Notes under the pieces: generated by a model | Databases searched by the model: none | Seen by the model: the letters and a program-made list of their open reading frames with translations, nothing else | Told to the model about the DNA's origin: nothing | Origin: a virus | IMG/VR virus record: IMGVR_UViG_3300037346_000160 | Location: 1-50,175 of that record | Reading direction: 5' to 3' (one strand) | Length of the DNA stretch: 50,175 nucleotides | Part shown: positions 22,579-44,007 of the stretch, one piece after another | Layout of the letters: every line of letters begins with the position of its first letter | Numbering within the stretch: position 1 is the stretch's first letter | Program-made: the position numbers and the translations under genes

Positions 22579-24609
22579 CTACTTGATTTTTATCTCACAA
22601 TAGTCTGTTGTACAGTAAGCCTCTCCTTGTGCTTCAAGGTTATCAATACCGTCGTAAATTGCAGTAAAATCAATATGCTTCAACTTGCCAATATATGACT
22701 CATACTCTTCTTCAGTAATTCCTGTATATGGTTGTTGTGGATAAACGGTATTACCCATTGGCAAGAAAGATACAGCCTTTAGTTGTCCCTCATACATATG
22801 AAGTACAGGAGCAACATGCTTAGACTCTGTTTCCTTATCAAAGGATAATGTTACAGATACGCCATTGTCTGACCAGTACTTTTGAGCAGTTGCTGCAAGA
22901 GCAATTTTTTCAAATAAAGTAACCTCTTTTTCAGATCTCTGCTCTCCAGTCTTAACTGGAAAATAAACTACTGAAGTATTTGCTGAAACAACATCTGCTT
23001 CAATTGTATAGTCTGCTGCTTTAAATAAATGAAGCATTGGATCTGTATTTCCAAAACGAATAGCACGAAGATAGAATGCTCCACCAGGACCCCAGTGAAC
23101 TCCAGGAGTTGCACCAGAAAGAATTGAAACAGAACCTGAAGGTTTTACAGTTGTTACACGAATTGACTCACGAACACATAGCCATTCTGAGTATTTCTTA
23201 TCGTAATGACGAATCTTGTTATATCCTTCGTCCATCCATTCACGAACTGCTGGTAAACCATTCTCATCAGCAAATGATGCAATACCTGTTAAGGATGTTC
23301 CAATACGACGATTACGTTGCATGATACCGTTTGTTTGTGGCCAGTGTGTTGGAAGAAGTGTTACAGTCTTTCCATAAAGATAAGCAAACTTCAATGTCTT
23401 GAGGAAGTCCTCCTTGGAGTCGTGACGATTTAAGTGCACTTCTACAAGTGTACATAGTTCGTATGATTCCAATGGCTGCTCCGCACAAGGATTGAAGCCC
23501 ATCACTCGATAGTCTTTGCCATCTGCAGGATCTGCAAGACGACCATAATTACGAGCAATATCAAGCCAAACAAACCCTGGCTCTCCATTGTCAATAATTA
23601 AATCTGTATATTTTTCATAATCCATTCCTACTGTTGCAGAAATAGAATTGTTAGACATCCATGCCCATCCTGGATTTTCTGAATCAAAAGAGTTACGCTC
23701 TGGAAAAACTTCTGCATTCTTTAGATTAATAAAGTTATCATCTTCTGGTGTACCCAAAGCAAGAGTTGCTGAGCGACGAACATTTCCAGAAACAACACAT
23801 GTTCCAATAAGGTTAATAATGTCTGTGATCCCACGAGAATCTAGAGTTTGCCCTGCTCTAGAGCCAATAACCTTGTCGATCTGCTCATGCATACGAATAA
23901 GTGGTGCTGGTCCGCTAGCAACCCCTCCAAAGCCCCTAATGGGGGCTCCTAAAGGACGTATCAAGTCATAGTTAAACTTTTGAATAGACTGGTTTGGTCT
24001 TAGGTATGAGTTAATTAAAATACGAACTGATTCTACCCATCCATCACGAGTGTCTGGGATTTCATAGATCACTTCTGGCTCTGTAGGTTGACAGATTTGA
24101 ATATTCTTATCCTGTCCTAAAGTATCAAACCCTACACCAATTCCAAGCATAAGTGCATCCATTACCCATGAGAACAATGCTCCTGGATCATTTTTGTCAA
24201 TATCTTTTGTTGATACCATTGCGCAGTTTTGGAGTGCTGCAGAGTTTTTCTTTTCCATTGTCATGTGTGTTCCAAATGTCCACATTCCACGACCTGGTGG
24301 AGTCCACTTTAATTCAAACATTCTTTGAAATGCTTCTTGTGCTGACTTTTGAGCCTTATAGTCATTCCATGGTAAACGGTTTTCCTTGGCATGATTCTTT
24401 TGAACTGAATACATGCCCTCGATTACACGGCGACAAACCTCATGCCATCTTTCTTTAGTTCCATCTTCTTTCATACGAGAGTATGTGCGAATAAAAGTAA
24501 TCTCTCCAAGTGAATTTTCTGCTGCATCTTTAAACCCAAATGGGCTCTCTTGGTTTTTATACTTTTCTATAAATTCCTCTGGTAATTTAAAACTAAAAAA
24601 ATCTGACAT
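22579..24609 (-). CDS. nrdJ: Adenosylcobalamin-dependent (class II) ribonucleotide reductase
   Basis: A protein of 676 aa, close to monomeric class II ribonucleoside-triphosphate reductases such as that of Lactobacillus leichmannii. It reduces ribonucleotides to deoxyribonucleotides using a cobalamin-generated thiyl radical. Visible key residues: Cys129 (ALQNCAMV), the NPCAEQ motif with radical Cys375 and Glu377, Cys386 eleven residues later, and a C-terminal Cys666-x4-Cys671 pair that would re-reduce the active site. PPGRGMW near 104-110 and PSGSVSILSGATPGVHWGPG support the same family. All catalytic cysteines are present, so it should be active if the host provides B12. AAAGGAC precedes the ATG, with TATACT upstream. 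Confidence 0.95.
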   Translation of the reverse strand: MSDFFSFKLPEEFIEKYKNQESPFGFKDAAENSLGEITFIRTYSRMKEDGTKERWHEVCRRVIEGMYSVQKNHAKENRLPWNDYKAQKSAQEAFQRMFELKWTPPGRGMWTFGTHMTMEKKNSAALQNCAMVSTKDIDKNDPGALFSWVMDALMLGIGVGFDTLGQDKNIQICQPTEPEVIYEIPDTRDGWVESVRILINSYLRPNQSIQKFNYDLIRPLGAPIRGFGGVASGPAPLIRMHEQIDKVIGSRAGQTLDSRGITDIINLIGTCVVSGNVRRSATLALGTPEDDNFINLKNAEVFPERNSFDSENPGWAWMSNNSISATVGMDYEKYTDLIIDNGEPGFVWLDIARNYGRLADPADGKDYRVMGFNPCAEQPLESYELCTLVEVHLNRHDSKEDFLKTLKFAYLYGKTVTLLPTHWPQTNGIMQRNRRIGTSLTGIASFADENGLPAVREWMDEGYNKIRHYDKKYSEWLCVRESIRVTTVKPSGSVSILSGATPGVHWGPGGAFYLRAIRFGNTDPMLHLFKAADYTIEADVVSANTSVVYFPVKTGEQRSEKEVTLFEKIALAATAQKYWSDNGVSVTLSFDKETESKHVAPVLHMYEGQLKAVSFLPMGNTVYPQQPYTGITEEEYESYIGKLKHIDFTAIYDGIDNLEAQGEAYCTTDYCEIKIK

Positions 24610-25297: not shown

Positions 25298-25927
25298 TTA
25301 GTGAATCCAGTGTTGTGGAACCATAATCTTTTCACCACTCTTAACTAGATGAGCAGTGTGATGGTATGGTGGTGATGGAGGAAACACAATGATGCTTCCT
25401 GCTTTTGGTTTTACTGCAAAAGTGTAGAATTTGTTTTTTTCTGCTTCTGCAAAATCTGCTTCTGGACTTGCATTTTGTAAAACTCCATCTGGTGAAGCAA
25501 TAGTAAAAGAAATTTCTCCGCCTTCGTAATCATCATTAAGATACATAACAAAAGAAACCTTTAGCCTTTCGTCACCTTCTTGTTGGTCAAAGTGTGCACC
25601 CATAAAGGTTCCTGGTTGATACTTTTTAATTGGATACTGAGGAAAGAGTTTTGGCTCATCCGTAATTCCTTGCGCCTTAGCATAATCTCTTGCTACATCA
25701 TCAAATGCTTTTTGCAAGGTTTCATAAATATATTTATTGTTTTCATCTGTTTCTGATGTTAAAGTAATGGTCTTGTCTGTTCCATAAACATATGCTTGAC
25801 CACTACAAGCCATCCATTCACCCCAGGGGTTCTTGTTGTCATCTTCAATTGCATTTATTAATTTCTTAGGATCCTCAATTACATTTGTGTAATAGTAAAC
25901 CTTTTCTTCAAGTATCTCTCTATTCAT
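25298..25927 (-). CDS. 2-oxoglutarate/Fe(II) oxygenase 1 (prolyl 4-hydroxylase-like)
   Basis: A protein of 209 aa with the double-stranded beta-helix pattern of prolyl 4-hydroxylase-like dioxygenases. The iron ligands are His112-x-Asp114 (MGAHFDQQ) and probably His190. Lys200, ten residues after the distal His, is placed to bind the 2-oxoglutarate carboxylate, where Arg is found in several of the paralogues. The shared signature YLNDDYEGGEI is at 129-139. The segment PPSPPYHH near the distal His is unusually proline-rich. It is the last oxygenase of a run of five in tandem. The substrate is unknown; peptidyl proline in phage fibres is a reasonable guess. Confidence 0.87.
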   Translation of the reverse strand: MNREILEEKVYYYTNVIEDPKKLINAIEDDNKNPWGEWMACSGQAYVYGTDKTITLTSETDENNKYIYETLQKAFDDVARDYAKAQGITDEPKLFPQYPIKKYQPGTFMGAHFDQQEGDERLKVSFVMYLNDDYEGGEISFTIASPDGVLQNASPEADFAEAEKNKFYTFAVKPKAGSIIVFPPSPPYHHTAHLVKSGEKIMVPQHWIH

Positions 25928-25935
25928 TATTCCCC

Positions 25936-26598
25936 CTAGTATTTATTGTTTTCGTAAAAGCCTTTAAGTTTTATAAAACCAACAAGAACATACCTAATTG
26001 GTCCTTCTCCAACATGTCTTACTCCGTGCTCATACTCTTCGTTTCCTGGAAAAATAAGAAGAGTTCCTGATTTTGGAACAGGCTCTACTCCTGGTTTATT
26101 TTTAAAAAACAAAGTTCCATCTTTATAGTCATCATTAAGATAAAGTATTGCTGCATGTCTAATTGATGGGTCTGTGTGTTGATCTGTATGGCTTTTTAGT
26201 TCAACTCCAGGCTGCATCCTTTGTAGTGTTGCAAAGCCAGAAAGATCTAATTGATCATCTGAAAGAGTAATTAATTTTTGAAGTCTTTCATGAATTGTTC
26301 TTGAAATAGCAAGATGACGAATGTCTAAGTTTTTGTCATACCAGTTATGTGTTATTTCATATTTTCCTTCAGCAACAAGGTTATCTACGTCGTCTCTTCC
26401 AAACTTTTCCATACAAAAGTTTTTTAAACTTTTTTTATATTCTACAGACCAATCTTCGTTTGTTGTTCCATTAATTAAAGATAGTATTTCTTCTAACTCT
26501 TCCTTTAACAAAAAATTTTCAATCATAAGGATCTCTCCTTCAAGGATTGTAGGGTTAAACCCTGCATCATCTAACTCTTTCTTTAAAAATATTTCCAT
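25936..26598 (-). CDS. 2-oxoglutarate/Fe(II) oxygenase 2
   Basis: A protein of 220 aa. Iron ligands are His137-x-Asp139 (KSHTDQHTD) and His191 (EEYEHGVRHV), with Arg202 for 2-oxoglutarate. The family signature appears as YLNDDYKDGTLFF, slightly divergent from the other copies. The N-terminal 120 residues are helical and unlike those of its neighbours, so substrate choice probably differs. It lies 5 bases from the preceding oxygenase gene and 8 from the next. All catalytic residues are intact. Confidence 0.88.
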   Translation of the reverse strand: MEIFLKKELDDAGFNPTILEGEILMIENFLLKEELEEILSLINGTTNEDWSVEYKKSLKNFCMEKFGRDDVDNLVAEGKYEITHNWYDKNLDIRHLAISRTIHERLQKLITLSDDQLDLSGFATLQRMQPGVELKSHTDQHTDPSIRHAAILYLNDDYKDGTLFFKNKPGVEPVPKSGTLLIFPGNEEYEHGVRHVGEGPIRYVLVGFIKLKGFYENNKY

Positions 26599-26602
26599 AG
26601 TA

Positions 26603-27346
26603 TTACTCCTCCACCTTATACTTATTGCCTTCAGAGTCTATTTTATACCCTTCTTTTAAAAGTTCTTGCCATTCTGCTCTTTCAATCTCTTGTTTTGCTC
26701 TTGTCTCTTTCATCTCTGCTGCCCAAGAGTCTCTTAGTTCTTGCGGGTACGCATTTTCTTCTCTATCATCCCAAAATGATCCTATTGTATACCTTACTCC
26801 ACTAGTAATAAGGGACACTTCGTGCATATTGTTAAATCCCCCGTCAAAAACGGCAAGCATTCCAACCTTGGGTTGAATTTCTATCTCTTGTCCTGGAAAC
26901 TTAAGAAGACCACCCTCAAAATCATCATTTAAATATAAAAATCCTGCATACCTGCTTCTTGTAAATGCCCCCGAGTTTCCTCCTGCATCTGTATTGTCTG
27001 AATGAATACGAGCATATGCACCTGGCTCCCATTTTTGAGTGTGATAACCAATTTTAGAAATTATTTTTGGATCTAGATCATGAACTGATGCAATTGCTAC
27101 AGGCATCATATTTTCAATATCTGAAAAAATAGTTGGTACTAGTCCTGCATCAATAACTTCTTGATCGTTGTCTTGTGGCAAAACAGAAGAATATGACTCA
27201 TAAAAAGAAATAGGCATCCAAGACATTTTCCCGTTTTCTGCTTGAGCATCTAAAGCATTTACAATTTTAGAACATTCATCTTTGGTTAAAAAGTCTTCGT
27301 AAACAACAATATCTTTTGTTATTCTATTTTTATTATTTAAATTCAT
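26603..27346 (-). CDS. 2-oxoglutarate/Fe(II) oxygenase 3
   Basis: A protein of 247 aa with the ligand set His115-x-Asp117 (YARIHSDNTD), His175 (NNMHEVSL) and Arg185. The signature is YLNDDFEGGLLKF. This copy carries a charged helical C-terminal extension of about 50 residues (ELRDSWAAEMKETRAKQEIE) that may be a partner-binding tail. Its start overlaps the upstream oxygenase stop by four bases (ATGA type), so translation is coupled. Catalytically complete; substrate unknown. Confidence 0.88.
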   Translation of the reverse strand: MNLNNKNRITKDIVVYEDFLTKDECSKIVNALDAQAENGKMSWMPISFYESYSSVLPQDNDQEVIDAGLVPTIFSDIENMMPVAIASVHDLDPKIISKIGYHTQKWEPGAYARIHSDNTDAGGNSGAFTRSRYAGFLYLNDDFEGGLLKFPGQEIEIQPKVGMLAVFDGGFNNMHEVSLITSGVRYTIGSFWDDREENAYPQELRDSWAAEMKETRAKQEIERAEWQELLKEGYKIDSEGNKYKVEE

Positions 27347-28200
27347 TGTATCCTCTTTTCTTTTTTTGCACTCATTTTATTTGGATGGTCGTCTCTAAAT
27401 TTTTGCATAATTTCTGGTTGCATCTTTTTCCAAACATCTTTGCCAAACTCTTCTTCTTTATCAAACCATTCATCAGATCCAACTTCATATTTCATCCAGT
27501 ACATTCTAGAAATATATTTGTTTTCTCCTTTTGCAGGCATGACTCCATGTAAGTATACCTGGCCTTCTTTAGTTAATATGTTTGGATGCCCTGAAGGAAA
27601 TAATAAAAAATCTCCTGCTTTTGGCTTATACATGTATGCTTCTCCATTTACAATAAAGTCAATCTCTCCGCCTTCGTAGTCATCATTAAAATAAGTCAAA
27701 GCAGTAATTGCAAACTTGTATCCTGGGCTTATGATTGGCTCTCTAATGTAATCAGAGTGATACGTCATAGCAAGTGGGCCATCTGTGTCTGTTTTATATC
27801 TTGCTATTGATGGACCGTTAGTGGTCCATTCGCTTGTAGGCTGACCGTTTTTTTTAATCAAATTTTTGTCTATGTTAAATTCTACATTATTTGTTTTTAT
27901 ATAATGTTCTGTTGCTATGTAAAAATTTTCAAATAGTTCTACGACTGCATTTTTTTGATCTTTTTCTTTTTTTGTACTTGTTTTTACTTTTTTAAATTCA
28001 TCGAGGCTCATGGTATGTGGATAGTCTTTAAATAACGGATTAAGATAATCTCCAAAAAAAGACCACTGTATCCATGGACTAATAAGGCCTTCGTTATTTT
28101 TATTTTTTAAAACTAAAAGAGTGTTGTGTATATCTTTAAAAAGATTTTTATATACAAAAACTTTAGGATATATTTCAATAAAATCTATGTCTTTATTCAT
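27343..28200 (-). CDS. 2-oxoglutarate/Fe(II) oxygenase 4
   Basis: The longest oxygenase of the set, 285 aa. Iron ligands are His148-x-Asp150 (MTYHSDYI) and His218 (VYLHGV); Lys228 takes the place of the usual 2-oxoglutarate Arg. The signature is YFNDDYEGGEIDF. There is an extra Lys-rich insertion at residues 65-85 and a C-terminal basic tail (NKMSAKKEKRIQ). The stop overlaps the next gene and the start shares a base with the previous stop, so it is part of the same coupled operon. Confidence 0.87.
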   Translation of the reverse strand: MNKDIDFIEIYPKVFVYKNLFKDIHNTLLVLKNKNNEGLISPWIQWSFFGDYLNPLFKDYPHTMSLDEFKKVKTSTKKEKDQKNAVVELFENFYIATEHYIKTNNVEFNIDKNLIKKNGQPTSEWTTNGPSIARYKTDTDGPLAMTYHSDYIREPIISPGYKFAITALTYFNDDYEGGEIDFIVNGEAYMYKPKAGDFLLFPSGHPNILTKEGQVYLHGVMPAKGENKYISRMYWMKYEVGSDEWFDKEEEFGKDVWKKMQPEIMQKFRDDHPNKMSAKKEKRIQ

Positions 28201-28874
28201 TATGGCTGTCTTTCCCCAGTGTGCTTAATTATCTCCCAAAAAAATGGGCATGTAAATCTTAATCCACTTTTAACTTCCGTTACTCCATGAATATAATTTT
28301 TGTCTCCTGGGAAAAAATATGCCGATCCCCTTTTTGGCTTAAACTGCACATTTTGTTTTGGAAAATATAATTCTCCGCCTTCGTAATCATCGTTTAAATA
28401 AAATAAACTAGAAATATCATAGTTTGGAAAATCATTAGGTGTTCCAGCATCTGGCCCTTCATGAAGTTCTTTGTCTGCATGAGGTTTTTGAAATTGTCCT
28501 GGAAGCCACTTGACAATTGTAGTTCCTGTAGGATTAACTTCTACTTTATAAAAATCTTCAACAATTGGCTTTAATCTTTCAAACAGTCCTGCAATTATCG
28601 GAGAAATAGATCGATCATTCTTGTCTAAGGTTGGCTGTGTTGCAACTCGATCTTTCCAGTAATCTGAATCATAAACGACTGTTCCATTTTCATTTACATG
28701 GCTTTGAGTTACATCCCAAATAATTAAAGATTTTGCAGCCTTTTCTAAAAATAACATTTCTTCTTCTGTCATAAAATTTTGTAATTCTACAATCATATCT
28801 TTGCTATCTCCAAACCACCCAGAGGGAGTCATTGAAGGCTTTCTTACTACAACAGATGCATTTATTTTTTCCAT
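28200..28874 (-). CDS. 2-oxoglutarate/Fe(II) oxygenase 5
   Basis: A protein of 224 aa. Ligands are His132-x-Asp134 (QKPHADKEL), His196 (NYIHGV) and Arg206. Signature YLNDDYEGGELYF. It starts the five-gene oxygenase run. The start codon has no Shine-Dalgarno, but TATAAT lies five bases upstream, so the five-gene mRNA probably begins at or very near this ATG (leaderless). Catalytically complete. Confidence 0.88.
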   Translation of the reverse strand: MEKINASVVVRKPSMTPSGWFGDSKDMIVELQNFMTEEEMLFLEKAAKSLIIWDVTQSHVNENGTVVYDSDYWKDRVATQPTLDKNDRSISPIIAGLFERLKPIVEDFYKVEVNPTGTTIVKWLPGQFQKPHADKELHEGPDAGTPNDFPNYDISSLFYLNDDYEGGELYFPKQNVQFKPKRGSAYFFPGDKNYIHGVTEVKSGLRFTCPFFWEIIKHTGERQP

Positions 28875-28901: not shown

Positions 28902-29357
28902 CTATAAAATCCTATTTATTTCTAGTTGTTTTAAAAATCTGTCTGAACTAAATCTCCAGTTATCTTTTGCAAAGGAAGTAACAATTTTTACACATGCTTC
29001 TTCATAGTCTTCTTTATTTAATTTATTTTTTAAAGAATGAAGCACTTCAACTATATCAATATAGTTTTGTCTAACAAAAGATGGATCTCCTGCATGGTTT
29101 CTTTTTAAAACTTTTTCAACCTTATTTCCCGATGGATCATATAAAGATACGGTTAAATAGTTTTTTGCAAAACCAGCGTCCTGATACATATCATATCCTT
29201 CTAAAGCCTGTTTTTCATTATCAAAAGAAATTATTGATCTAACTGGAGACTCTTCATCTCTAGAAACTGTTATCATATAATGACTAACTTTGCCTTCTTT
29301 AGCATTTTTGATATAATCGTTTACCATGTCATCATGCGTAATTTTTAATTCATTCAT
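28902..29357 (-). CDS. Hypothetical protein within modification island
   Basis: A protein of 151 aa that I do not recognise. It is mixed alpha/beta, soluble and charged, with a C-terminal helical part (LHSLKNKLNKEDYEEACVKI). No metal-binding or nucleotide-binding motif is seen. It shares one base with the upstream DUF6065-like gene and is followed by the oxygenase promoter, so it is the end of the upstream transcription unit. Confidence 0.7.
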   Translation of the reverse strand: MNELKITHDDMVNDYIKNAKEGKVSHYMITVSRDEESPVRSIISFDNEKQALEGYDMYQDAGFAKNYLTVSLYDPSGNKVEKVLKRNHAGDPSFVRQNYIDIVEVLHSLKNKLNKEDYEEACVKIVTSFAKDNWRFSSDRFLKQLEINRIL

Positions 29358-30061
29358 TACTTACCCTTATCTTTCACTGTCAGTTTTAAAGTTTTTACTT
29401 CATGGTACCCAAGAGGCTCTTGTTTTTCATTTACAGCATTTCTATACCAATCTGTCCAGTCTCCAGATGAGTTTAACTTTTGTGCTGCACTTCCATAGGA
29501 TATGTTTGCATCAATTCTTTTTCTATCTTCATCAGAATAATCTACGATAGTAATAGTACTGTTGTTTAGTTGACTTAAAGAAATAGGAATTATTGTTGCT
29601 ACTGGAGTTCCTGCTTTAATTACCGTTTTTTTATTAGGAATCTTTGCTTTAAGTGCAAGAGGAAGAGGATTATCATAAAATGACGTACTAATCAAAGATG
29701 ACATTGTTTCAAATTCATCAGTAAAGTAGTTAACTGGGTTAATCATAAACATACTAACATCTTGTTGTGTTCTAAATATTAGTCCTGTATCAATGCTTAT
29801 TGATGATTGACCTCTTCCAGAGTAAGCACTTAATGGACTAAATATTTCAACATGACTTGAACTTTGATCATTTACTCCATCCCAAATAAATTCTATGTCT
29901 TCTTTACAAGAAAGACTATAGCCAATAACATTTGCCTGGGTTACTGGAAAACACCTATAAGCATGATTTTCAGAAGTCTTGTCCATCCAGTCTCTTTTAA
30001 TAGACATTGGAGAAAGTTCAAAAATTGCTCCTGGCATTTTTTCAACAATTATGTCATACAC
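29357..30061 (-). CDS. DUF6065-like protein A
   Basis: A protein of 234 aa. The N-terminal pattern MKRDWMD-like (KRDWMDKTSENHAYRCFPV), followed by ANVIGYSLSCKEDIEFIWDG and later IKAGTPVATIIPI, matches my recollection of the DUF6065 family of uncharacterised bacterial and phage proteins. Function is unknown; the composition suggests a beta-sandwich. It is embedded between two oxygenase genes and overlaps both neighbours by one base. A second, more divergent copy lies at 30728-31504, so the pair has probably diverged alongside the oxygenases. Confidence 0.7.
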   Translation of the reverse strand: MYDIIVEKMPGAIFELSPMSIKRDWMDKTSENHAYRCFPVTQANVIGYSLSCKEDIEFIWDGVNDQSSSHVEIFSPLSAYSGRGQSSISIDTGLIFRTQQDVSMFMINPVNYFTDEFETMSSLISTSFYDNPLPLALKAKIPNKKTVIKAGTPVATIIPISLSQLNNSTITIVDYSDEDRKRIDANISYGSAAQKLNSSGDWTDWYRNAVNEKQEPLGYHEVKTLKLTVKDKGK

Positions 30062-30717
30062 TAGTTAGACTCTTCTACGTACATTTCTGGGGTATGAAAC
30101 TTTTTATTATAATCTAACATCGTGACAATTGAATATTTAATTCCAGAAGTGACTGGCATTGCTTGGTGAGCATACATGAAGTTTGATGGAAAGATGAATA
30201 GGTCTCCTGCTTCTGGCTTAACCTTTAAATCTTGAAGCCTAAAGTATAACTCCCCGCCATCATAGTCATCATTTATATAACCAACCAAAGATACAGTGCA
30301 GTTATAAGAAAACCCATGGTCGTGGTGCTCCATAAAGTGTTGTCCTGGCCCATATTTAATAAAATTAAACGCTTCCCAATATTGAAGATTATTAATGTTA
30401 TACATTCTTGAATAATCCTGAACGACTGGAAGTTTTACATCATACAGGTCCTGCCATAAAGACTGTAGATTTAGCCCTACAGGACTTTTGTCATGCTCTA
30501 TGTCTGTTTTTTTATATTTAAAATCATTGCAGTCTCTATAATCTGGCATCAACTGTTTATACCCAACATATGCAGGCTGCCAACTATAACCAGTTTCGTC
30601 TCCTTCTGGTTTTAGATTGGCCTCAATTCTTTCTATAACGTTAATTTCTTTTTTAATAACATTTTTGTAACAAAAAATACCATTTCCAAGATCTTGTTTT
30701 TCTGTCCAGGTTTGCAT
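30061..30717 (-). CDS. 2-oxoglutarate/Fe(II) oxygenase 6
   Basis: A protein of 218 aa. Ligands are His131-x-Asp133 (FMEHHDHG), His174 (MYAHQAM), with Lys184 as the 2-oxoglutarate binder. Signature YINDDYDGGELYF. It is closest to oxygenase 7: both share RDCxDFKYK, EAFNF(I/V)KY and YNCTVS. The ATG at 30717 is chosen because AAGGAA lies six bases upstream and it avoids a long overlap with the preceding gene; a possible ATG at 30777 lacks a ribosome site. Confidence 0.87.
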   Translation of the reverse strand: MQTWTEKQDLGNGIFCYKNVIKKEINVIERIEANLKPEGDETGYSWQPAYVGYKQLMPDYRDCNDFKYKKTDIEHDKSPVGLNLQSLWQDLYDVKLPVVQDYSRMYNINNLQYWEAFNFIKYGPGQHFMEHHDHGFSYNCTVSLVGYINDDYDGGELYFRLQDLKVKPEAGDLFIFPSNFMYAHQAMPVTSGIKYSIVTMLDYNKKFHTPEMYVEESN

Positions 30718-30727
30718 AATATATTCC

Positions 30728-31504
30728 TTATCTATATTCTCTTCTTGACCAGACTTTATTTTTATAAATACCGCCATCTGGTTGACGATAAAAGTTTGCG
30801 TTATCTACCATTTTACCATACATTTCTGACTGTGCCAAAATCTCAAGTTCATGACTCCAGTTTTCTCTTTTAAATGGAAGAACTTGCAGGTAAGGCGTTC
30901 CTGCTGGAATAGTTCCTTCCCAACCATCTGCAATAAAAAAAGGAAAACTTCCAAGAAGATGAACTTTATCTGAATCAACTACTCCTGTTGTATTTATAAA
31001 TGGAAGATCAAACCTATTCATGGGTGTCATAAATAAGGCACTGTATCCATCTGGTAACTCCAAGCCCCAATCAGCAAACCAAGCAAAATGATGTTTGTAA
31101 AATCCTTTTGGATGTTCAAATTGTGGCATTGGCGGTCTTTGAGTACAAAAATCTTTATATCTTAAATCTTCAATTTTTACATTAATTATTCCTTGATCAT
31201 TTTTAAAAAAAACTAAATCGCATGGAGTTTTAAAAACATACCCAGTTGAAAATGCATCCATGATTGCAGGACAGGCTTTCCATGTTGGAATCTTTCCATA
31301 GTCGTCAACAGTTCCTTCTTTAGGAAATGGACAAACCTCTTTTGGCGCTTTATAATATTCTCCATTTGGCATTTTAGCAAATCTGTCTGCATCTTTGTAC
31401 CATTCTGGAATAACGCTTTGAGTTGATGAGGGAACGCTGATACTTTCTTTATTTAACCAAGGCCTAAATGATCTAAATATTGCTAGATTAGGCTTTTCGC
31501 TCAC
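30728..31504 (-). CDS. DUF6065-like protein B
   Basis: A protein of 258 aa with a GTG start that overlaps the upstream stop by one base (TAGTG). IPEWYKDADRFAK near the N-terminus, CPAIMDAFSTGYVFKTPCDL in the middle and TIPAGTPYLQVLPF near 215 parallel protein A (IKAGTPVATIIPI). It belongs to a phage-associated family I know only as uncharacterised. Co-transcription and alternation with oxygenases 6 and 7 suggest a partner or substrate-handling role, which is inference. Confidence 0.65.
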   Translation of the reverse strand: MSEKPNLAIFRSFRPWLNKESISVPSSTQSVIPEWYKDADRFAKMPNGEYYKAPKEVCPFPKEGTVDDYGKIPTWKACPAIMDAFSTGYVFKTPCDLVFFKNDQGIINVKIEDLRYKDFCTQRPPMPQFEHPKGFYKHHFAWFADWGLELPDGYSALFMTPMNRFDLPFINTTGVVDSDKVHLLGSFPFFIADGWEGTIPAGTPYLQVLPFKRENWSHELEILAQSEMYGKMVDNANFYRQPDGGIYKNKVWSRREYR

Positions 31505-32217
31505 TACTTATGGCCTAGTTCATTTATGTCTGTCATAACAACAACACAGTACTTTGTTCCTGACTCCATAGGCAAAGATGCATGCTCATATATATAGTTA
31601 GAAGGAAAAATGGCAATGTCTCCAACCTTTGGTTTATACACTAGGTTATCTAGTCTTGGGAACTTTAAGTCCCCACCTTCGTATTCGTCATTAATATAGA
31701 TAACGGCAGACACAGTACAATTATATGCTGGGCCATGGTCTGCGTGTATATTAAAATGAGTACCTTTTCCTTCATACTTAACAAAGTTGAATGCTTCATA
31801 ATATACAACATTTATACCCCAATATTTTGCATAGTCGTCTATACAATACTTAAGTTTTTGATATATCTCTTCATGTAGATCTATTAACTCTGAGTTATGC
31901 TCATCTCTTGTTCCCAAATTTTCTTGCTTGTATTTAAAATCAACACAGTCTCTTGCTTTTTTAATTGGTGTGGTAGAGTTTGTTACTGTTGCTTCAGACC
32001 ACTTATATTTTTTATTTGTTGATAGGTTTGATTCAAGAATATCAATATATCTATTTGCATCATTTAATGAAAATGTGTTTTGATAAACATGTAGTCCTAT
32101 TCCTAAGTTTGATACAGAAACATTGTTGTCTAAAAATCTTTTGGCAACCCTATTTGACGCTGTTTCGGATCTATCTTTTGTAAACCACGGATTAACATTT
32201 TCATCATATATTGACAT
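31504..32217 (-). CDS. 2-oxoglutarate/Fe(II) oxygenase 7
   Basis: A protein of 237 aa. Ligands are His158-x-Asp160 (FNIHADHG) and His202 (YEHASL), with Lys212 for 2-oxoglutarate. Signature YINDEYEGGDLKF. It is a close paralogue of oxygenase 6. The ATG at 32217 is preferred to an upstream GTG because ATAGGA lies just before it. The promoter is a TGG-TATACT box that doubles as one arm of a terminator hairpin. Confidence 0.87.
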   Translation of the reverse strand: MSIYDENVNPWFTKDRSETASNRVAKRFLDNNVSVSNLGIGLHVYQNTFSLNDANRYIDILESNLSTNKKYKWSEATVTNSTTPIKKARDCVDFKYKQENLGTRDEHNSELIDLHEEIYQKLKYCIDDYAKYWGINVVYYEAFNFVKYEGKGTHFNIHADHGPAYNCTVSAVIYINDEYEGGDLKFPRLDNLVYKPKVGDIAIFPSNYIYEHASLPMESGTKYCVVVMTDINELGHK

Positions 32218-32252
32218 TTTATTCCTATCTCTATTAAAGTTTTCTAAATAAA

Positions 32253-32258
32253 AGTATA
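32253..32258 (-). promoter_or_regulatory. Extended -10 box inside terminator arm
   Basis: GTGG-TATACT on the minus strand upstream of oxygenase 7. It shares its bases with the 3' arm of the hairpin at 32254-32285. Confidence 0.55.
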
Positions 32259-32285
32259 CCACACCAAAACTCTGATGTGGTATAC
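32254..32285 (-). terminator. Terminator hairpin after PFF-repeat gene
   Basis: Perfect 10-bp stem GTATACCACA / TGTGGTATAC with a 12-base loop, followed on the minus strand by TTTTATTT. On the plus strand the hairpin is followed more distantly by TTTTTT, but no plus-strand gene ends here. Confidence 0.75.
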
Positions 32286-32303
32286 CTTACTTAGTTTTTT
32301 ATA

Positions 32304-33137
32304 TTATACGGCAATTGCGAAGGATGGGAAGAATGGGAAGTACGGTGGTGCAAAGTATGGGAAGTACGGTGGGAAGAATGGGAAGAATGGTGGAAAGAAT
32401 GGTCCAAAGAATGGGAAGAATGGGAAGAATGGGAAGAACGGGAAGAATGGGAAGAATGGTGGAAAGAATGGGAAGAATGGGAAGAATGGTGGGAAGAACG
32501 GGAAGAATGGGAAGAACGGGAAGAATGGTGGGAAGAACGGTGGAGTGGTAGTAACAGAGTTAGACGCTGGAGATGTTACAGAGTTTCCGTTTGCATTAAC
32601 TGCTACAACTGTATAAGTTTGTGCTGTGTTGCCTTCTTGTGTAACTACTACAGAAGTTGATGCAGTTGATCCGCTTTTTGCATCTGAAGATGCCCAATTA
32701 TAGGATGTAATTGCAGATCCACCATTTGCTGGTGCTGTCCAAGATACTGTATCTTGATTAACTCCTGCAGTTGCTGTTGGAGCACTTAGAGTTGCTGGAA
32801 CGGTTGTTACTGTTACTGCAGCAGAGGCAGCAGATGCAGCAGAAGTTCCTGCAGCATTAGTTGCTGTTACTGTAAATGTTGGTGTTGCTCCAGAAGCAAT
32901 TCCAGTAACTGTAATTGGAGATGATGCTCCAGTTGCAGTTTGTCCAGTGCTTGCTGTTACTGTGAACGATATTGCTACTGGAGATAGCGCAGGTAAAGAA
33001 AAGGAAACGGATACAGCACCATTATTAAAGGGTCTATTAGTTCCTACATTGCTTCCAGAAACACCTGTTGGTGCTAATGGTTCTAAAAAGTCATTTGACG
33101 CTTGGGACTTTCTGCCTATCTTTTTACCTGCTGCCAT
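32304..33137 (-). CDS. Fibronectin type III protein with C-terminal Pro-Phe-Phe repeat
   Basis: A protein of 277 aa. Two FN3-like domains are visible at about 25-110 (FTVTATNAAGTSAAS) and 113-195 (WTAPANGGSAITSYNW, YTVVAVNANGNS). From about 197 to 272 the chain is almost only Pro and Phe, with blocks of PFF and PPFF, a single Gly, and PYF variants near the end. FN3 domains are common on phage virion surfaces. The PFF tail is extremely hydrophobic and proline-rich; it could be a multimerisation or tip element and is an obvious candidate substrate for the neighbouring prolyl-hydroxylase-like enzymes (inference). AAAAGGAGA precedes the ATG. Confidence 0.8.
   Translation of the reverse strand: MAAGKKIGRKSQASNDFLEPLAPTGVSGSNVGTNRPFNNGAVSVSFSLPALSPVAISFTVTASTGQTATGASSPITVTGIASGATPTFTVTATNAAGTSAASAASAAVTVTTVPATLSAPTATAGVNQDTVSWTAPANGGSAITSYNWASSDAKSGSTASTSVVVTQEGNTAQTYTVVAVNANGNSVTSPASNSVTTTPPFFPPFFPFFPFFPFFPPFFPFFPFFPPFFPFFPFFPFFPFFPFFGPFFPPFFPFFPPYFPYFAPPYFPFFPSFAIAV
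32325..32545 (-). repeat. Tandem 9-base repeat encoding Pro-Phe-Phe
   Basis: On the plus strand, units GGGAAGAAT or GGTGGAAAGAAT with small variations are repeated about twenty times, encoding PFF and PPFF on the minus strand. Such repeats can change length by slippage or recombination. Confidence 0.9.
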
Positions 33138-33166
33138 GTTAAATCTCCTTTTTTCTTATTAAATTT

Positions 33167-34714
33167 TTATGCTGTTAAATCGCCGAAAACAACCCATGTA
33201 TTTGCTGCTCTTTTGAAAAGAGTTGCAGAAGACCATGTGGTTCTTAACTTTAATCCTGGTGTTGCGTTTACTGTTACTCCTACTGCACCTGCAAATGTTA
33301 CTTGTCCAGTTGATGTCTGAAGGATATCAAGGGAAGTTCCGATTGGAAAGTTTAGTGTTTCATCAGTTGGAATTGTAAGAGTCATTGCTGATCCTGAACT
33401 CATTTCCAGTAAATTATCTCTTTCAGTTAATCCTGAAAGTGTGTAAGAGCCTGTCTTTTGAATAATAGGAGTTCTTGATGGAACACCTTCTGCTGCTTGT
33501 GTACCGTCTGAAAATACAATACCTGCTGCTGGAAGTGTTACTGTTCCAGATGCTGTAAGATTTACTACCGTCGCTGTACCAGTAAGTGCTGGTGAAGCAA
33601 GCGGGGCCTTAAGTGCTAAATTATTTGTTAATGTTGTTGAGAAGTTTGCATCATTTCCAAGAGCAGTTGCTAACTCATTAAGAGTGTCAAGTGCTTCTGG
33701 TGAAGAGGCTACAAGATTTGAAACTGCTGTTCCAACAAAAGCTGTTGTAGCAACTTGTGTGGTTGCTGTTCCTGCAGTTGCTGTTGGCGCAGTTGGTACA
33801 CCAGTAAGGGCTGGTGATTCTAGTGGGGCCTTTAGATCAAGGGCGGAGTTAACTGTAGCAGTTAAGGCAAGGGCAGATGTATCTGAAATTCCATGAACAT
33901 TTGTTGTTATACTTTTATGTGCTGCAATTGCATCATCTGCGTAAGACTTTGTTGCAACTGTTGAGTCAATGTCATAGGCTAGGCTAGTAGTATTCCAATC
34001 AATTCCAACTCCTGCAAGACTTTCTTGGTCTACAGTTGCACTATTGATTGAACTTGAAATATCTGTAAGTGTTGCAAGTACTGATGTATCTAGAATGCCA
34101 TGGATATTTGTTGTTAAAAGATTATGAGCATTTAAGGCATCTGCTGCCTGACTTGCAAAATCTGCATCTGCTGCATCTGCGTAAGACTTTGTTGCAAGTA
34201 GTGCTGTATCTGCAATACCATGAATAGATGTTGTGTCTGACTGATGGGCTGATACTGCACCAGTAACTGAATCTTCAAGGTTTAATGCTGTAACAAGAAC
34301 TGCAGTATCTGCAATACCATGAACATCTATTGTTATACTTTTATGTGCTGCAATTGCATCATCTGCGTAAGACTTTGTTGCAAGTAATGCTGTATCTGGA
34401 ATACCATGAATAGATGTTGTGCTTGATAGGTGTGCACCTAAATCATTTCCAACTGTTACAAAGAAATTTGGGTCATCACCCATTGCTGCTGCTAACTCAT
34501 TAAGAGTGTTTAGAAGATCTGGGGCTCCGTCAATGAGTGCTGCTAATTCTCCTGCATTAGCAAAATATGTTAGGGCTGCCCAGTTTGATGAGCCATTACC
34601 CATCTTAAATTTACTTGTATCGGTTTCAAAACCAATTTCTCCTGCTGCTAATACTGGGTTTGCAGCCGTCCATTGTGCTGCAGTGCCTCTGCGCTGTTGC
34701 ATTCTTGTTGCCAT
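33167..34714 (-). CDS. Tail fibre protein with tropism-determinant-like N-terminus
   Basis: A protein of 515 aa. Residues 1-50 (MATRMQQRRGTAAQWTAAN, GEIGFETDTSKFKMGNGS) resemble the N-terminal domain seen on many phage fibres, including the major tropism determinant. The middle contains four or more copies of an IHGI-(A/P/L)-DT-(A/S)-(V/L)-L unit with KSYADDAIAAHKS, likely a repeating fibre shaft, and a TLNELA-A-(M/L)-G-(D/N)-D motif that occurs twice. The last 100 residues form a beta domain that recurs in the 42619-44007 protein (ending WVVFGDL / WVLFGDI). AAGGAGA precedes the ATG. Confidence 0.85.
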   Translation of the reverse strand: MATRMQQRRGTAAQWTAANPVLAAGEIGFETDTSKFKMGNGSSNWAALTYFANAGELAALIDGAPDLLNTLNELAAAMGDDPNFFVTVGNDLGAHLSSTTSIHGIPDTALLATKSYADDAIAAHKSITIDVHGIADTAVLVTALNLEDSVTGAVSAHQSDTTSIHGIADTALLATKSYADAADADFASQAADALNAHNLLTTNIHGILDTSVLATLTDISSSINSATVDQESLAGVGIDWNTTSLAYDIDSTVATKSYADDAIAAHKSITTNVHGISDTSALALTATVNSALDLKAPLESPALTGVPTAPTATAGTATTQVATTAFVGTAVSNLVASSPEALDTLNELATALGNDANFSTTLTNNLALKAPLASPALTGTATVVNLTASGTVTLPAAGIVFSDGTQAAEGVPSRTPIIQKTGSYTLSGLTERDNLLEMSSGSAMTLTIPTDETLNFPIGTSLDILQTSTGQVTFAGAVGVTVNATPGLKLRTTWSSATLFKRAANTWVVFGDLTA

Positions 34715-39143: not shown

Positions 39144-39171
39144 GGACCCCTCTTAGGAGGGGTTCTTTTTT
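39144..39171 (+). terminator. Rho-independent terminator of lysozyme-like gene
   Basis: ACCCCTC / GAGGGGT stem with a TTAG loop, extendable by two pairs, followed by TTTTTT. It overlaps the end of the convergent epimerase gene. Confidence 0.85.
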
Positions 39172-40184
39172 ATTTCTTGAAGTATCCAAGAGTATGTTTT
39201 TTCAATACCTTCTTTTAAAGTCATAGAATAATCCCAATTTAATTTTTCTCTAACTAAATCATTATTAGAGTTTCTTCCTCTAACTCCTAAAGGTCCAAAG
39301 ATATGATTTTTTTTCAAAACTTTGCCTTCAATGCTGCAAGCAATATCAACTAGCTGATTAATAGTAACCATCTCTTCAGAGCCAATATTAACTGGTCTAG
39401 TAAAGTTTGACTGCATAAGTTTTCTTGTTGCCTCTATGCATTCATCTATGTATAGAAATGAACGAGTTTGTTCTCCATCCCCCCAAATTTCTATAAAGCC
39501 CTCTGCCTGTATAACTTTTCTACACATTGCTGCAGGAGCCTTTTCTTTTCCACCATCCCAAGTTCCCTCTGGTCCATAGATATTATGATACCTAGCAATG
39601 GCTACGGGAATCTTGTTGTTTCTATTAAATGCTAAAAACATTCTTTCACTAAACAGTTTTTCCCAACCGTACTCACTGTCAGGATCTGCAGGGTATGCAT
39701 CAGACTCTTTAAGTCCAGGATTATTTACATCTAACTGCTTATAGTCAGGATACATACAAGCAGAACTTGAATAAAATATCTTGGTTTTATTAATGTTATA
39801 TTTTGTATTTAATCTTGACTGAGACCTTAGTAGGTTGAGGTTTATAAGTGCAGAGTTTTCCATAATTTGAGAATCATTGTCTCCAGTAAAAATATAACCA
39901 GCACCACCCATATCTGCTGCGAATTGATAGATTTCATCAAAAGAAGTTATTGTGTGATAAGGAACATTATAATAAAAGTTTCCGCTATATCCTTTAAACT
40001 GAATAACTTTTTCAACATTCTCGTATACAGATAAATCTCTTTCAATAAACTCGTCTGCTACAGATTCTGAAAAGTCTGGATGTTTTAAATCAACTCCTCT
40101 AACCCAGAATCCTTCTGATTTTAAACGCTTAACCATATGGTTTCCAATAAAACCACCTGCTCCTAAAACTAGTGCTTTCTTCAT
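39153..40184 (-). CDS. GDP-mannose 3,5-epimerase homologue
   Basis: A protein of 343 aa, a short-chain dehydrogenase-type sugar-nucleotide epimerase. The Rossmann motif is LGAGGFIG (residues 7-14). Residues match the plant enzyme family closely: SSSACMYP with Cys143, Tyr172-x3-Lys176 (EYGWEK), YHNIYGPEGTW, GGKEKAPAA with Lys215, and WGDGEQTRSFLYIDEC. This enzyme converts GDP-mannose to GDP-L-galactose and GDP-L-gulose. Compared with the plant form there is an insertion at about residues 60-85. The ATG at 40184 overlaps the glycosyltransferase stop as ATGA with AAGG upstream, so the two proteins are made together and probably form one pathway. Confidence 0.88.
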   Translation of the reverse strand: MKKALVLGAGGFIGNHMVKRLKSEGFWVRGVDLKHPDFSESVADEFIERDLSVYENVEKVIQFKGYSGNFYYNVPYHTITSFDEIYQFAADMGGAGYIFTGDNDSQIMENSALINLNLLRSQSRLNTKYNINKTKIFYSSSACMYPDYKQLDVNNPGLKESDAYPADPDSEYGWEKLFSERMFLAFNRNNKIPVAIARYHNIYGPEGTWDGGKEKAPAAMCRKVIQAEGFIEIWGDGEQTRSFLYIDECIEATRKLMQSNFTRPVNIGSEEMVTINQLVDIACSIEGKVLKKNHIFGPLGVRGRNSNNDLVREKLNWDYSMTLKEGIEKTYSWILQEIKKNPS

Positions 40185-41215
40185 AGCAGCCTTGATTCCT
40201 TCCATTCTCTCCACCATTGCTTTGCAATGCTATCTTTATTGTTGTAGCCATTCCAAGAATATGGCCCTGTTTGAACATGCTCTATTTCTCCGAATATCTT
40301 CCATTGTATATTATTTTTTTGATTTAAATTTCTATGAATATATCCAGTAAATGTGCTTCCTGGACTGCCAATGAAATCTTTACTGTAATGCATTACAAGA
40401 TTGTTTAGTAGTCCAAAAGAAACCTCTTCTTTAAATTTAAACTGCCGAAACTCTTTATAAAAATTATTTAAGATATACTCATCTAAAAATATATAGTTAT
40501 AAGATGATTTTGTAATTATTTCACTATTTGGTTGATCTGTACACATAACAACTGAAAGGCTATTCTCTAGCCTGCTCACTCCCATATCTAAAACACTATG
40601 GTCTGGATCAAACATAGCCTTATGGTCTGCTAATCTAAAATGAATGCCATTGAAGTCTCCAAGTGATTTAGCAATATCAGATGCCAACTGATAGTACTCT
40701 GAATTAAACTTAACAGAAGACAAACTATTGTTTAATTCAGCATTACGATTATAAAAAAATCTGCTGTAATACCCTAAAGTTTTTCTTAGGTGTATATTTT
40801 TATTGTTATCAACTATAAGAAGTTTTCTGCCTTCTGCAAATGACTCTTCATCTGATGAAAAATTTAAATCAGATGAATAATAACCTATAAGATTGTCTAT
40901 AACTAAATCTTCATTAGTAAATGAATTAACAGTGTCATTTATTAATACGGAACAATCTTTATTTTCCCAATTAAGCAGATCTGATATATTTGGGAATATG
41001 TCAGAGTCAATAACATTAGGCCTTTTGTTAAAAACATAATTGGCAGAATAAATAGGTACATTTTTTCCTCCATAATCAGAGTTTGGGGGATTGCTTATGT
41101 TGTGAATAACTAACTGTTTTTTATATCTACTTGCCAACCCAACTGCCAACTCTATACTAGTTACTTGATTAAACAAGCCACATGGCTGATAAAGTTGATA
41201 GAATATATTTGTCAT
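40181..41215 (-). CDS. O-fucosyltransferase-like glycosyltransferase
   Basis: A protein of 344 aa. The N-terminus has the PCGLFNQVTSIELAVGLA pattern (G-x-x-N-Q) seen in GDP-fucose transferases of the O-FucT/NodZ type. The donor-binding HxRxxD motif is IHFRLAD (His192, Arg194, Asp197), and FIGSPGSTFTGYIHR near 281-295 matches the late motif that follows in these enzymes. It would transfer a fucose-like sugar from a GDP donor. Translational coupling to the GDP-mannose epimerase suggests GDP-L-galactose or a similar donor. No membrane segment, so it acts in the cytoplasm, perhaps on phage proteins. Confidence 0.75.
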   Translation of the reverse strand: MTNIFYQLYQPCGLFNQVTSIELAVGLASRYKKQLVIHNISNPPNSDYGGKNVPIYSANYVFNKRPNVIDSDIFPNISDLLNWENKDCSVLINDTVNSFTNEDLVIDNLIGYYSSDLNFSSDEESFAEGRKLLIVDNNKNIHLRKTLGYYSRFFYNRNAELNNSLSSVKFNSEYYQLASDIAKSLGDFNGIHFRLADHKAMFDPDHSVLDMGVSRLENSLSVVMCTDQPNSEIITKSSYNYIFLDEYILNNFYKEFRQFKFKEEVSFGLLNNLVMHYSKDFIGSPGSTFTGYIHRNLNQKNNIQWKIFGEIEHVQTGPYSWNGYNNKDSIAKQWWREWKESRLL

Positions 41216-42618: not shown

Positions 42619-44007
42619 TCATATTGCACAACCATCGCATGTAGGTAAGTCACCAAACCCACCACAACCAGGGCAAGCGCTAGGTGTTGGGGCAACTGGT
42701 GTAGGAGCAACTGGAGTTGGAGTTGGTGTTGGAGTTGGGGCAACTGGTGTAGGAGCAACTGGTGTTGGGGCAACTGGTGTAGGAGCAACTGGTGTTGGGG
42801 CAACTGGTGTTGGGGCAACTGGTGTAGGAGCAACTGGTGCTGGGGCAACTGGTGTAGGTGCTACAGGTGTAGGTGCTACATAATTATAAGTAACAAGGCT
42901 TACATTTGCGCCATAGAAAGTAATTGTTCCTGCTGTTGGTGATTGTGAAGAAACTCTTCCATTATTTGCAGATGTTGCTCCAATTGTAGTGCTTCCACCA
43001 TTAGAATAGGCAAATCCATCATCAGATAGCAATGCTTGAGCAATACTTAGAGTAAAACCAACAGTATTAGGCACAGAAACTCCTGAAGCAACTGGAGTTG
43101 GAGTTGGTGTTGGTACTGGAGCAACTGGAGTTGGAGTTGGTGTTGGAGTTGGTACTGGAGCAACTGGAGTTGGAGTTGGAGTTGGAGTTGGAGTTGGAGT
43201 TGGAGTTGGTGTTGGTGTTGGTACTGGAGCAACTGGTGTAGGTGCTGGGGCAACTGGGGTAGGTGCTACAGGTGTAGGAGCAACTGGTGTTGGAGCAACT
43301 GGTGTAGGAGCAACTGGTGTAGGAGCAACTGGTGTTGGGGCAACTGGTGTTGGTGTTGGTGTTACGATAGATTCTTCAGCAATATCACCAAACAAGACCC
43401 ACTCATTAGTGGCAATTTTAATTAAAGTTGCTTTTCCATATCTAGCATCTATATAGGCTTCTGAATTTTTACTATTAAGAGTAACTCCATTAGACCCCAT
43501 AATGTGTATTCTTTCAGACCCAATATCTAAAAGATCATATCTATATCCTAAAGGAATTTCAACGCTAGAATTTAAGGGTATTGTTAAATGAGCTTCAGCA
43601 GAGGAATTAATAATTAAAGTTTTACCTGAATCTAATAACTCTAAAGTAAAGCTAGATGTTTTATAAACAAGAGATTGTTGAACTCCTAAAGACAATAATA
43701 TATTATTTATTTGAGTTTGAAGATTTGTATCTGCATCTTCTCTATCTTGTATCTCTGTATTAAGACCATTTTGTGCTATTATTGCGTTTGCACTATCTGC
43801 ATCTTTAAGTAATCTAATATACCCAGCGATTGATTTAGAGTTAATTCCATCTGCTACATTTAACTGGTCTACAGTTGGCAAAACCGTTGATCCATAATGA
43901 TAAAGTTTTAAAGCTTCTTGGATATCTGCAGCATCTTCATAACCAGGTATCTTGGTTGGGTATAACCCAGAGCCATTTTCCGTATCATCAATATATTCAG
44001 AAGCCAT
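42619..44007 (-). CDS. Proline-rich fibre protein with PASTA-like domain
   Basis: A protein of 462 aa. Residues 1-110 are helical. Residues about 110-210 are the beta domain shared with the tropism-type fibre C-terminus. From 213 to 307 and from 375 to 440 run PVAPT and PTPTP repeats. Between them, residues about 308-375 look like one PASTA domain (VPNTVGFTLSIAQALLSDDGF ... QSPTAGTI), which often binds peptidoglycan or its precursors. The last 20 residues hold CPGCGG and CDGC, possibly a zinc knuckle. A fibre that reaches the cell wall and binds it via PASTA is a plausible role. Confidence 0.82.
   Translation of the reverse strand: MASEYIDDTENGSGLYPTKIPGYEDAADIQEALKLYHYGSTVLPTVDQLNVADGINSKSIAGYIRLLKDADSANAIIAQNGLNTEIQDREDADTNLQTQINNILLSLGVQQSLVYKTSSFTLELLDSGKTLIINSSAEAHLTIPLNSSVEIPLGYRYDLLDIGSERIHIMGSNGVTLNSKNSEAYIDARYGKATLIKIATNEWVLFGDIAEESIVTPTPTPVAPTPVAPTPVAPTPVAPTPVAPTPVAPTPVAPAPTPVAPVPTPTPTPTPTPTPTPTPTPVAPVPTPTPTPTPVAPVPTPTPTPVASGVSVPNTVGFTLSIAQALLSDDGFAYSNGGSTTIGATSANNGRVSSQSPTAGTITFYGANVSLVTYNYVAPTPVAPTPVAPAPVAPTPVAPTPVAPTPVAPTPVAPTPVAPTPVAPTPTPTPTPVAPTPVAPTPSACPGCGGFGDLPTCDGCAI
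42680..42880 (-). repeat. Tandem repeat encoding Pro-Val-Ala-Pro-Thr (C-terminal block)
   Basis: A 15-base unit such as GGTGTAGGAGCAACT repeated about a dozen times, encoding PVAPT on the minus strand. Confidence 0.9.
43088..43370 (-). repeat. Tandem repeat encoding PTP and PVAPT (central block)
   Basis: GGAGTT and GGTGTT units (Pro-Thr) alternating with the 15-base PVAPT unit. Near-identical units suggest recent expansion. Confidence 0.9.

Follow-up and report, generated by a model that had tools for sequence, protein, structure and literature searches.

A phenylalanine- and proline-rich tail on a phage fibre-region protein, and its association with a neighbouring block of 2OG-Fe(II) oxygenase genes

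Aquatic phage genomes commonly carry genes for 2OG oxygenases and prolyl-hydroxylase-like proteins, which are usually listed as auxiliary metabolic genes. Cohesive low-complexity domains include the FG-nucleoporin and elastin-like domains. For the prolyl 4-hydroxylase of PBCV-1, the viral proline-rich repeat peptides are reportedly of the PAPK kind. A chlorella virus prolyl 4-hydroxylase has been described together with viral proline repeats (Eriksson et al., 1999, as cited in PMC9301287), and one passage of a survey states that the viral use of prolyl 4-hydroxylase "remains cryptic" (PMC9301287). In this context, we propose a specific and testable candidate substrate, encoded beside an array of about seven such oxygenase genes.

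The window, i.e., the whole stretch of 50,175 nucleotides that was analysed, is a 50 kb IMG/VR record (IMGVR_UViG_3300037346_000160) of a phage whose capsid and portal proteins are closest to those of Streptomyces phages (40-50% identity), so that an actinobacterial host is likely; the phage is presumably of a freshwater type, as judged from the kind of virus and not from sample data. The gene under study, FN3-PFF (32304..33137, minus strand), encodes 277 amino acids comprising a basic and conserved N-terminus (residues 1-20, MAAGKKIGRKSQASNDFLEP), two FN3-like domains and a phenylalanine and proline tail (P/F tail; PPFFPPFFPFFPFFPFFPPFFPFF...PYFAPPYFPFFPSFAIAV) that starts at residue 199 and runs to the stop codon. 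Its ATG is preceded, at a distance of 7 bases, by a Shine-Dalgarno-like GGAG read from the sequence (33145..33148, minus strand). The gene sits within a fibre module, neighboured by Mtd_N and PHROG tail-fibre genes; upstream lies a tail-fibre protein with Mtd_N (33167..34714, minus strand; 52.2 bits) that belongs with PHROG tail fibre families, and the order of these two genes is kept in nearly all relatives. The fn3 Pfam score of the window protein was 22.2 bits against a cut-off of 25, that of one relative (L053) reached 38.4 bits, above the same cut-off, and the family profile (A1) matched titin FN3 chains (E 5e-34). Furthermore, single-chain AlphaFold2 modelling gave the FN3 region a pLDDT of about 90 or more.

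A preliminary description had placed a Pro-Phe-Phe repeat tail of about 75 residues on this FN3 protein (32304-32545), and such a tail is indeed present at 32307..32543 (minus strand; residues 199-277), with about 75 residues that are nearly all Phe or Pro. The repeat itself stands; however, it is not a pure PFF repeat: its units consist of P or PP and then two aromatic residues, [F/Y]F, and occasional Y, G, A and S residues appear towards the end, which closes with PSFAIAV. The rarity claimed for such a segment was supported. The pattern TTYTTYCCNTTYTTYCC had 10 matches, all inside the tail stretch, against 0.01 expected in shuffles. Tandem Repeats Finder returned periods of 9, 21, 30 and 69 bases for the tail. 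Moreover, TTC made up 36 of its 40 Phe codons, against 62/398 in the other genes of the window, an extreme preference in a TTT-preferring genome, and CCG was enriched among the Pro codons of the same stretch (32307-32543); repeat purity and avoidance of T runs are possible causes of the TTC bias. An opposite-strand open reading frame with GKN repeats (32275-32616) was rejected as the mirror image of the P/F repeat.

A DNA-level tandem expansion or an assembly artefact, with an incidental coding frame, would also produce a 9-base repeat of variable copy number, and the preliminary description had itself named an artefact or an untranslated end as what would overturn its view. We regard this explanation as highly improbable and, as to the reading frame, already refuted. 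An assembly artefact is contradicted by the 70 further distinct IMG/VR sequences that keep the tail in frame, and in the set of 71 distinct tails from many metagenomes (5,767 codons) both the frame and the aromatic grammar are kept and synonymous changes dominate, so that the frame is real and the tail is translated. In these 71 tails, the changes of Phe TTC comprised 191 to the synonymous TTT, 112 to Tyr and one each to Ser and Cys, with none to Leu, Ile or Val; for Pro CCA, 772 synonymous changes stood against 15 non-synonymous ones. The second residue of the aromatic pair was Phe in 1665/1669 cases, the first being Phe, Tyr or sometimes Ser. The tail is thus under strong purifying selection at the protein level. 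Since TTC went to Tyr 112 times but never to Leu, Ile or Val, the selection is for aromatic residues and not for mere hydrophobicity, which refines the preliminary notion of a tail distinguished by its hydrophobic character.

A first scan of viral contigs yielded 323 relatives. The 80 loci kept contained 76 long open frames whose tails were rich in aromatic residues and proline, almost all being P/F tails in the same frame; after two more scans, 145 distinct proteins shared the same FN3 region. Neither tblastn nor megablast found known isolate relatives in 50,697 phage records, a search in which low-complexity filtering may hide some, and a scan of cellular genomes returned generic FN3 proteins only (up to 44% identity), without the PFF tail. 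Besides PFF, the tails consist of YSFTP/FAFTP, FGFSP/FGVFGFSP/FGFTP, GAFGAFG, CPAF or FFSPPG repeats, every type being rich in Phe and in Gly/Pro/Ser; the PFF, CPAF, SFTP and GAF tails have practically no charge, and the charge count of the FGFSP tails includes some Hint sequence and is not clean. The FFSPPG tail occurs on a contig (L231) broken by stops or frameshifts, in which PF13640 finds only two weak oxygenase fragments and which is not relied on for the association, and one virus with an 89 kb record (L148) carries two FN3-PFF genes.

After the repeat, the tips vary, being Cys-rich, GGNKFDPRAT-like, or an intein-like Hint domain, which by a simple pattern ends about 41 of the 145 proteins. 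The profile of the Hint tip matched a solved intein (5bkh, E 7e-7) and a bacterial intein-like (BIL) domain (2lwy, E 5e-6). Hint domains follow Phe-rich tails in L053 (4001-5296), L024 (4001-5365), L102, L106 and others; many of the Hint-domain ends finish with HN and a few residues, and some are without the starting Cys. The rapid length change that had been suggested from the 9-base DNA repeat was seen when related phages were compared, as proposed at that stage: in same-tip pairs with identical or 99.8% identical FN3 DNA, the tails differed by 11, 13, 23, 34, 37 or 46 residues, often by 23, a step equal to the 69-base period found in the window, although the exact tail lengths are unsure because short-read assembly may distort copy numbers.

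These properties bear on the idea that the tail is a cohesive assembly element, which would join fibre subunits or bundle the C-termini of trimers and make no host contact, tips or Hint domains trimming or capping it. We consider this unlikely. The several kinds of interchangeable, uncharged and aromatic-rich repeats do resemble cohesive low-complexity segments, and such a role would also suit the variable C-terminal tips and the intein-like Hint domains that many relatives have behind the tail; nevertheless, single-chain AlphaFold2 leaves the P/F tail as a low-confidence coil (pLDDT about 48-64) without secondary structure, and tail length differs even between near-identical copies.

The prolyl-hydroxylase-like neighbours noticed in the preliminary description amount to seven 2OG-FeII_Oxy_3 (PF13640) genes between 25298 and 32262, all on the minus strand: OX0 (25298..25927), OX1 (25936..26598), OX2 (26603..27346), OX3 (27343..28200), OX4 (28200..28874), OX5 (30061..30777), and OX6 (31504..32262). 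Their PF13640 scores were 32.6-50.9 bits against a cut-off of 27, and the HxD...H...K/R metal and 2OG ligands were recognised by eye in the OX proteins (e.g., HAD...EH...TK in OX6). The closest PDB chains to OX6 were bacterial prolyl 4-hydroxylases, and for both OX4 and OX6 the closest entry was a Bacillus prolyl 4-hydroxylase, with weak but significant scores. Among these genes lie a DUF6065 protein (29357..30061, minus strand), which accompanies the PF13640 block, and U30728 (30728..31504, minus strand), which remains the neighbour of the tail gene even in loci that lack oxygenases and is weakly related to halovirus proteins. A ribonucleotide reductase (22579..24609, minus strand) bounds the swapped block on its downstream side.

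Between the tail gene and OX6, directly after the stop codon of the former, is a terminator-like hairpin (GTATACCACA...TGTGGTATAC then TTTTATTT; 32244..32294, minus strand) of -26.8 kcal/mol (z -8.4), followed by a T-rich stretch; its stem is common to several relatives, and a simple terminator scan did not list it. The likely start codon of OX6 is the ATG at 32217, closely preceded by an AGGA stretch. Because of this hairpin, which counts against one simple operon, the tail gene and the first oxygenase need not share a transcript; the tail gene may end a structural transcript, the oxygenases being expressed from another transcript or by read-through.

When a locus was counted as complete if it reached the reductase or 5.5 kb, PF13640-like genes adjoined the PFF tail in 33/33 complete loci, usually 5-9 of them, and genes of a second family, here called Bx, in none of these 33. 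By script count, five or more PF13640-like genes were present in 31/33 of the PFF loci; one of the two exceptions (L148) has nine PF13640 genes in its full record, seven of them near the tail genes. FGFSP-type tails had Bx genes in 52/53 loci, 11 of which 53 also held one or two PF13640-like genes, and PF13640-like genes adjoined neither the GAF (0/5) nor the SFTP tails (0/5), these 10 loci having one Bx in total. The set of genes that separates the tail gene from the ribonucleotide reductase changes with the tail type, and the neighbourhood first noticed in one virus is linked to the PFF tail type over many related viruses. Over whole records, many of which are fragments, PF13640 genes numbered 6-10 in PFF phages, 1-7 in FGFSP phages, 0-1 with SFTP and 0-2 with GAF tails, and one FGFSP fragment of 30 kb (L088) had none; the contrast between tail types is weaker over whole records than at the adjoining loci. 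A rule by which a proline-rich tail means an oxygenase was rejected, as proline-containing SFTP tails are without adjoining PF13640-like genes.

The Bx proteins (e.g., L073:5128-5788 and L131:10888-11538), with a conserved HDH...GHxH...R, had no Pfam or NCBIfam match, and hhalign gave no match between the Bx and OX families. An AlphaFold2 model (pLDDT 91) retrieved 3bvc and 2rg4 as best hits in a fold search, with prolyl 4-hydroxylases among the next, and the Bx proteins are predicted to have a 2OG-Fe(II)-oxygenase fold. Two oxygenase families, with no sequence relation in these comparisons, thus stand in the same place beside two different tail types.

In the reductase tree, near-identical reductases carry different tails; the tree requires at least 20 changes of tail type and 11 of the PF13640 block, and supported independent pairs agree in 5/5 cases (p = 0.0625). 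In the FN3 tree, independent pairs agree in about 3/4, and the block-less SFTP tails are nested inside the PFF clade. A Fisher p of 3e-17 ignores kinship and is not relied on. The trees show that tail and oxygenase block are co-exchanged between related phages. As the two are neighbours, one recombination could move both, so that linkage may explain part of the association; a functional coupling is favoured, although not proven, by the absence of mixed cases.

It is possible, if somewhat doubtful, that the tail stays unmodified and serves as a hydrophobic adhesive, or as a segment inserting into a membrane or envelope, and that the oxygenases act elsewhere, being merely linked to it physically and co-moved by recombination. 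Neighbouring genes are expected to be transferred together, SFTP tails exist without the block, PF13640 genes are found elsewhere in the genomes of relatives, and the hairpin separates the tail gene from the oxygenases. Nevertheless, such an account has to accommodate the 33/33 against 0/10 loci, with no recombinants seen despite frequent exchange in the region, and the presence beside FGFSP tails of a second 2OG-oxygenase family, unrelated by sequence, at the same place.

Taken together, the comparisons show a tail that is selected at the protein level to be aromatic, that varies in length and is exchangeable, and whose type tracks the type of the oxygenase block. The reading that we favour, tentatively and at a probability somewhat below one half (about 0.45), is that this fibre-region protein bears a sticky tail of aromatic residues and proline, which the adjacent enzymes hydroxylate. 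FN3-PFF would be a tail-fibre-associated virion protein, anchored and spaced by its conserved basic N-terminus and FN3 domains, and the P-[F/Y]-F tail would form a disordered or extended, uncharged segment acting as a sticky (adhesive or cohesive) module at the fibre tip. The neighbouring 2OG-Fe(II) oxygenases would hydroxylate this tail, most likely on proline, and hydroxylation could make an otherwise insoluble tail manageable, tune its interactions, make it less hydrophobic and favour an extended, polyproline-like conformation. The strict demand for aromatic residues would be in keeping with stacking on Pro or sugars or with CH-pi contacts to them, and tail and enzyme set may be swapped as one cassette between related phages.

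Several observations count against a hydroxylated tail: the SFTP tails, mostly with 18-21 prolines, are yet without the block, a set of six or seven enzymes is large for a single substrate, and PF13640 enzymes act on varied substrates. Moreover, FGFSP relatives have 1-7 PF13640 genes at other places in their genomes, so the enzymes may serve other substrates. A wider reading, in which swappable Phe-rich tails, each with matched hydroxylating 2OG oxygenases, form a modular adhesive system whose end is processed by Hint in some phages, is rather doubtful.

Elsewhere in the window, a second repeat protein (42619-44007, minus strand) has PTPVAP/PTP tracts and a near-threshold PASTA domain, and is possibly another prolyl-hydroxylase substrate. 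At 39153-41215 (minus strand), a sugar-nucleotide epimerase-like gene, with GDP-L-fucose synthase as its best NCBIfam match, below the cut-off, adjoins a gene whose product has the motif HFRLADHK, which recalls GDP-fucose transferases, and the two might serve to glycosylate virion proteins.

The literature searched contained no paper with PFFPFF in this sense and none combining phage, FN3, low complexity and phenylalanine, nor did it describe exchangeable Phe-rich tails together with matched sets of oxygenases. If the favoured reading is true, phages modify their own fibres after translation, much as collagen or extensin is modified, and such aromatic-proline tails would constitute a natural class of sticky polypeptides that is new and might lend itself to engineering. 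Among known systems, the Mtd_N (major tropism determinant) fibre proteins share their domain with the upstream neighbour and not with FN3-PFF itself, and the bacterial intein-like (Hint) domains that follow the tail in many relatives are absent from the window protein, which ends in its own PSFAIAV. With collagen-like and proline-rich phage fibre proteins the locus shares a low-complexity, proline-containing extension in the tail-fibre region, but the P/F tail is without a Gly-X-Y pattern, having a single Gly in its whole length and >90% Phe and Pro. FG-nucleoporin and elastin-like domains are similar in their regularly spaced Phe, Pro/Gly spacers and lack of charge, and the tails of relatives have FG and GAFG motifs; however, there is no homology, and the window tail has no FG, FxFG or GLFG repeats, its sole FG being one step, FFGPFF. 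Unlike PBCV-1, the present virus is a tailed phage; its FN3 domains carry a P-[F/Y]-F tail, and about seven putative enzymes are encoded beside the candidate substrate. As in PBCV-1, the virus encodes both a prolyl-hydroxylase-type enzyme and a proline-repeat protein, here in adjacent genes and at 33 loci.
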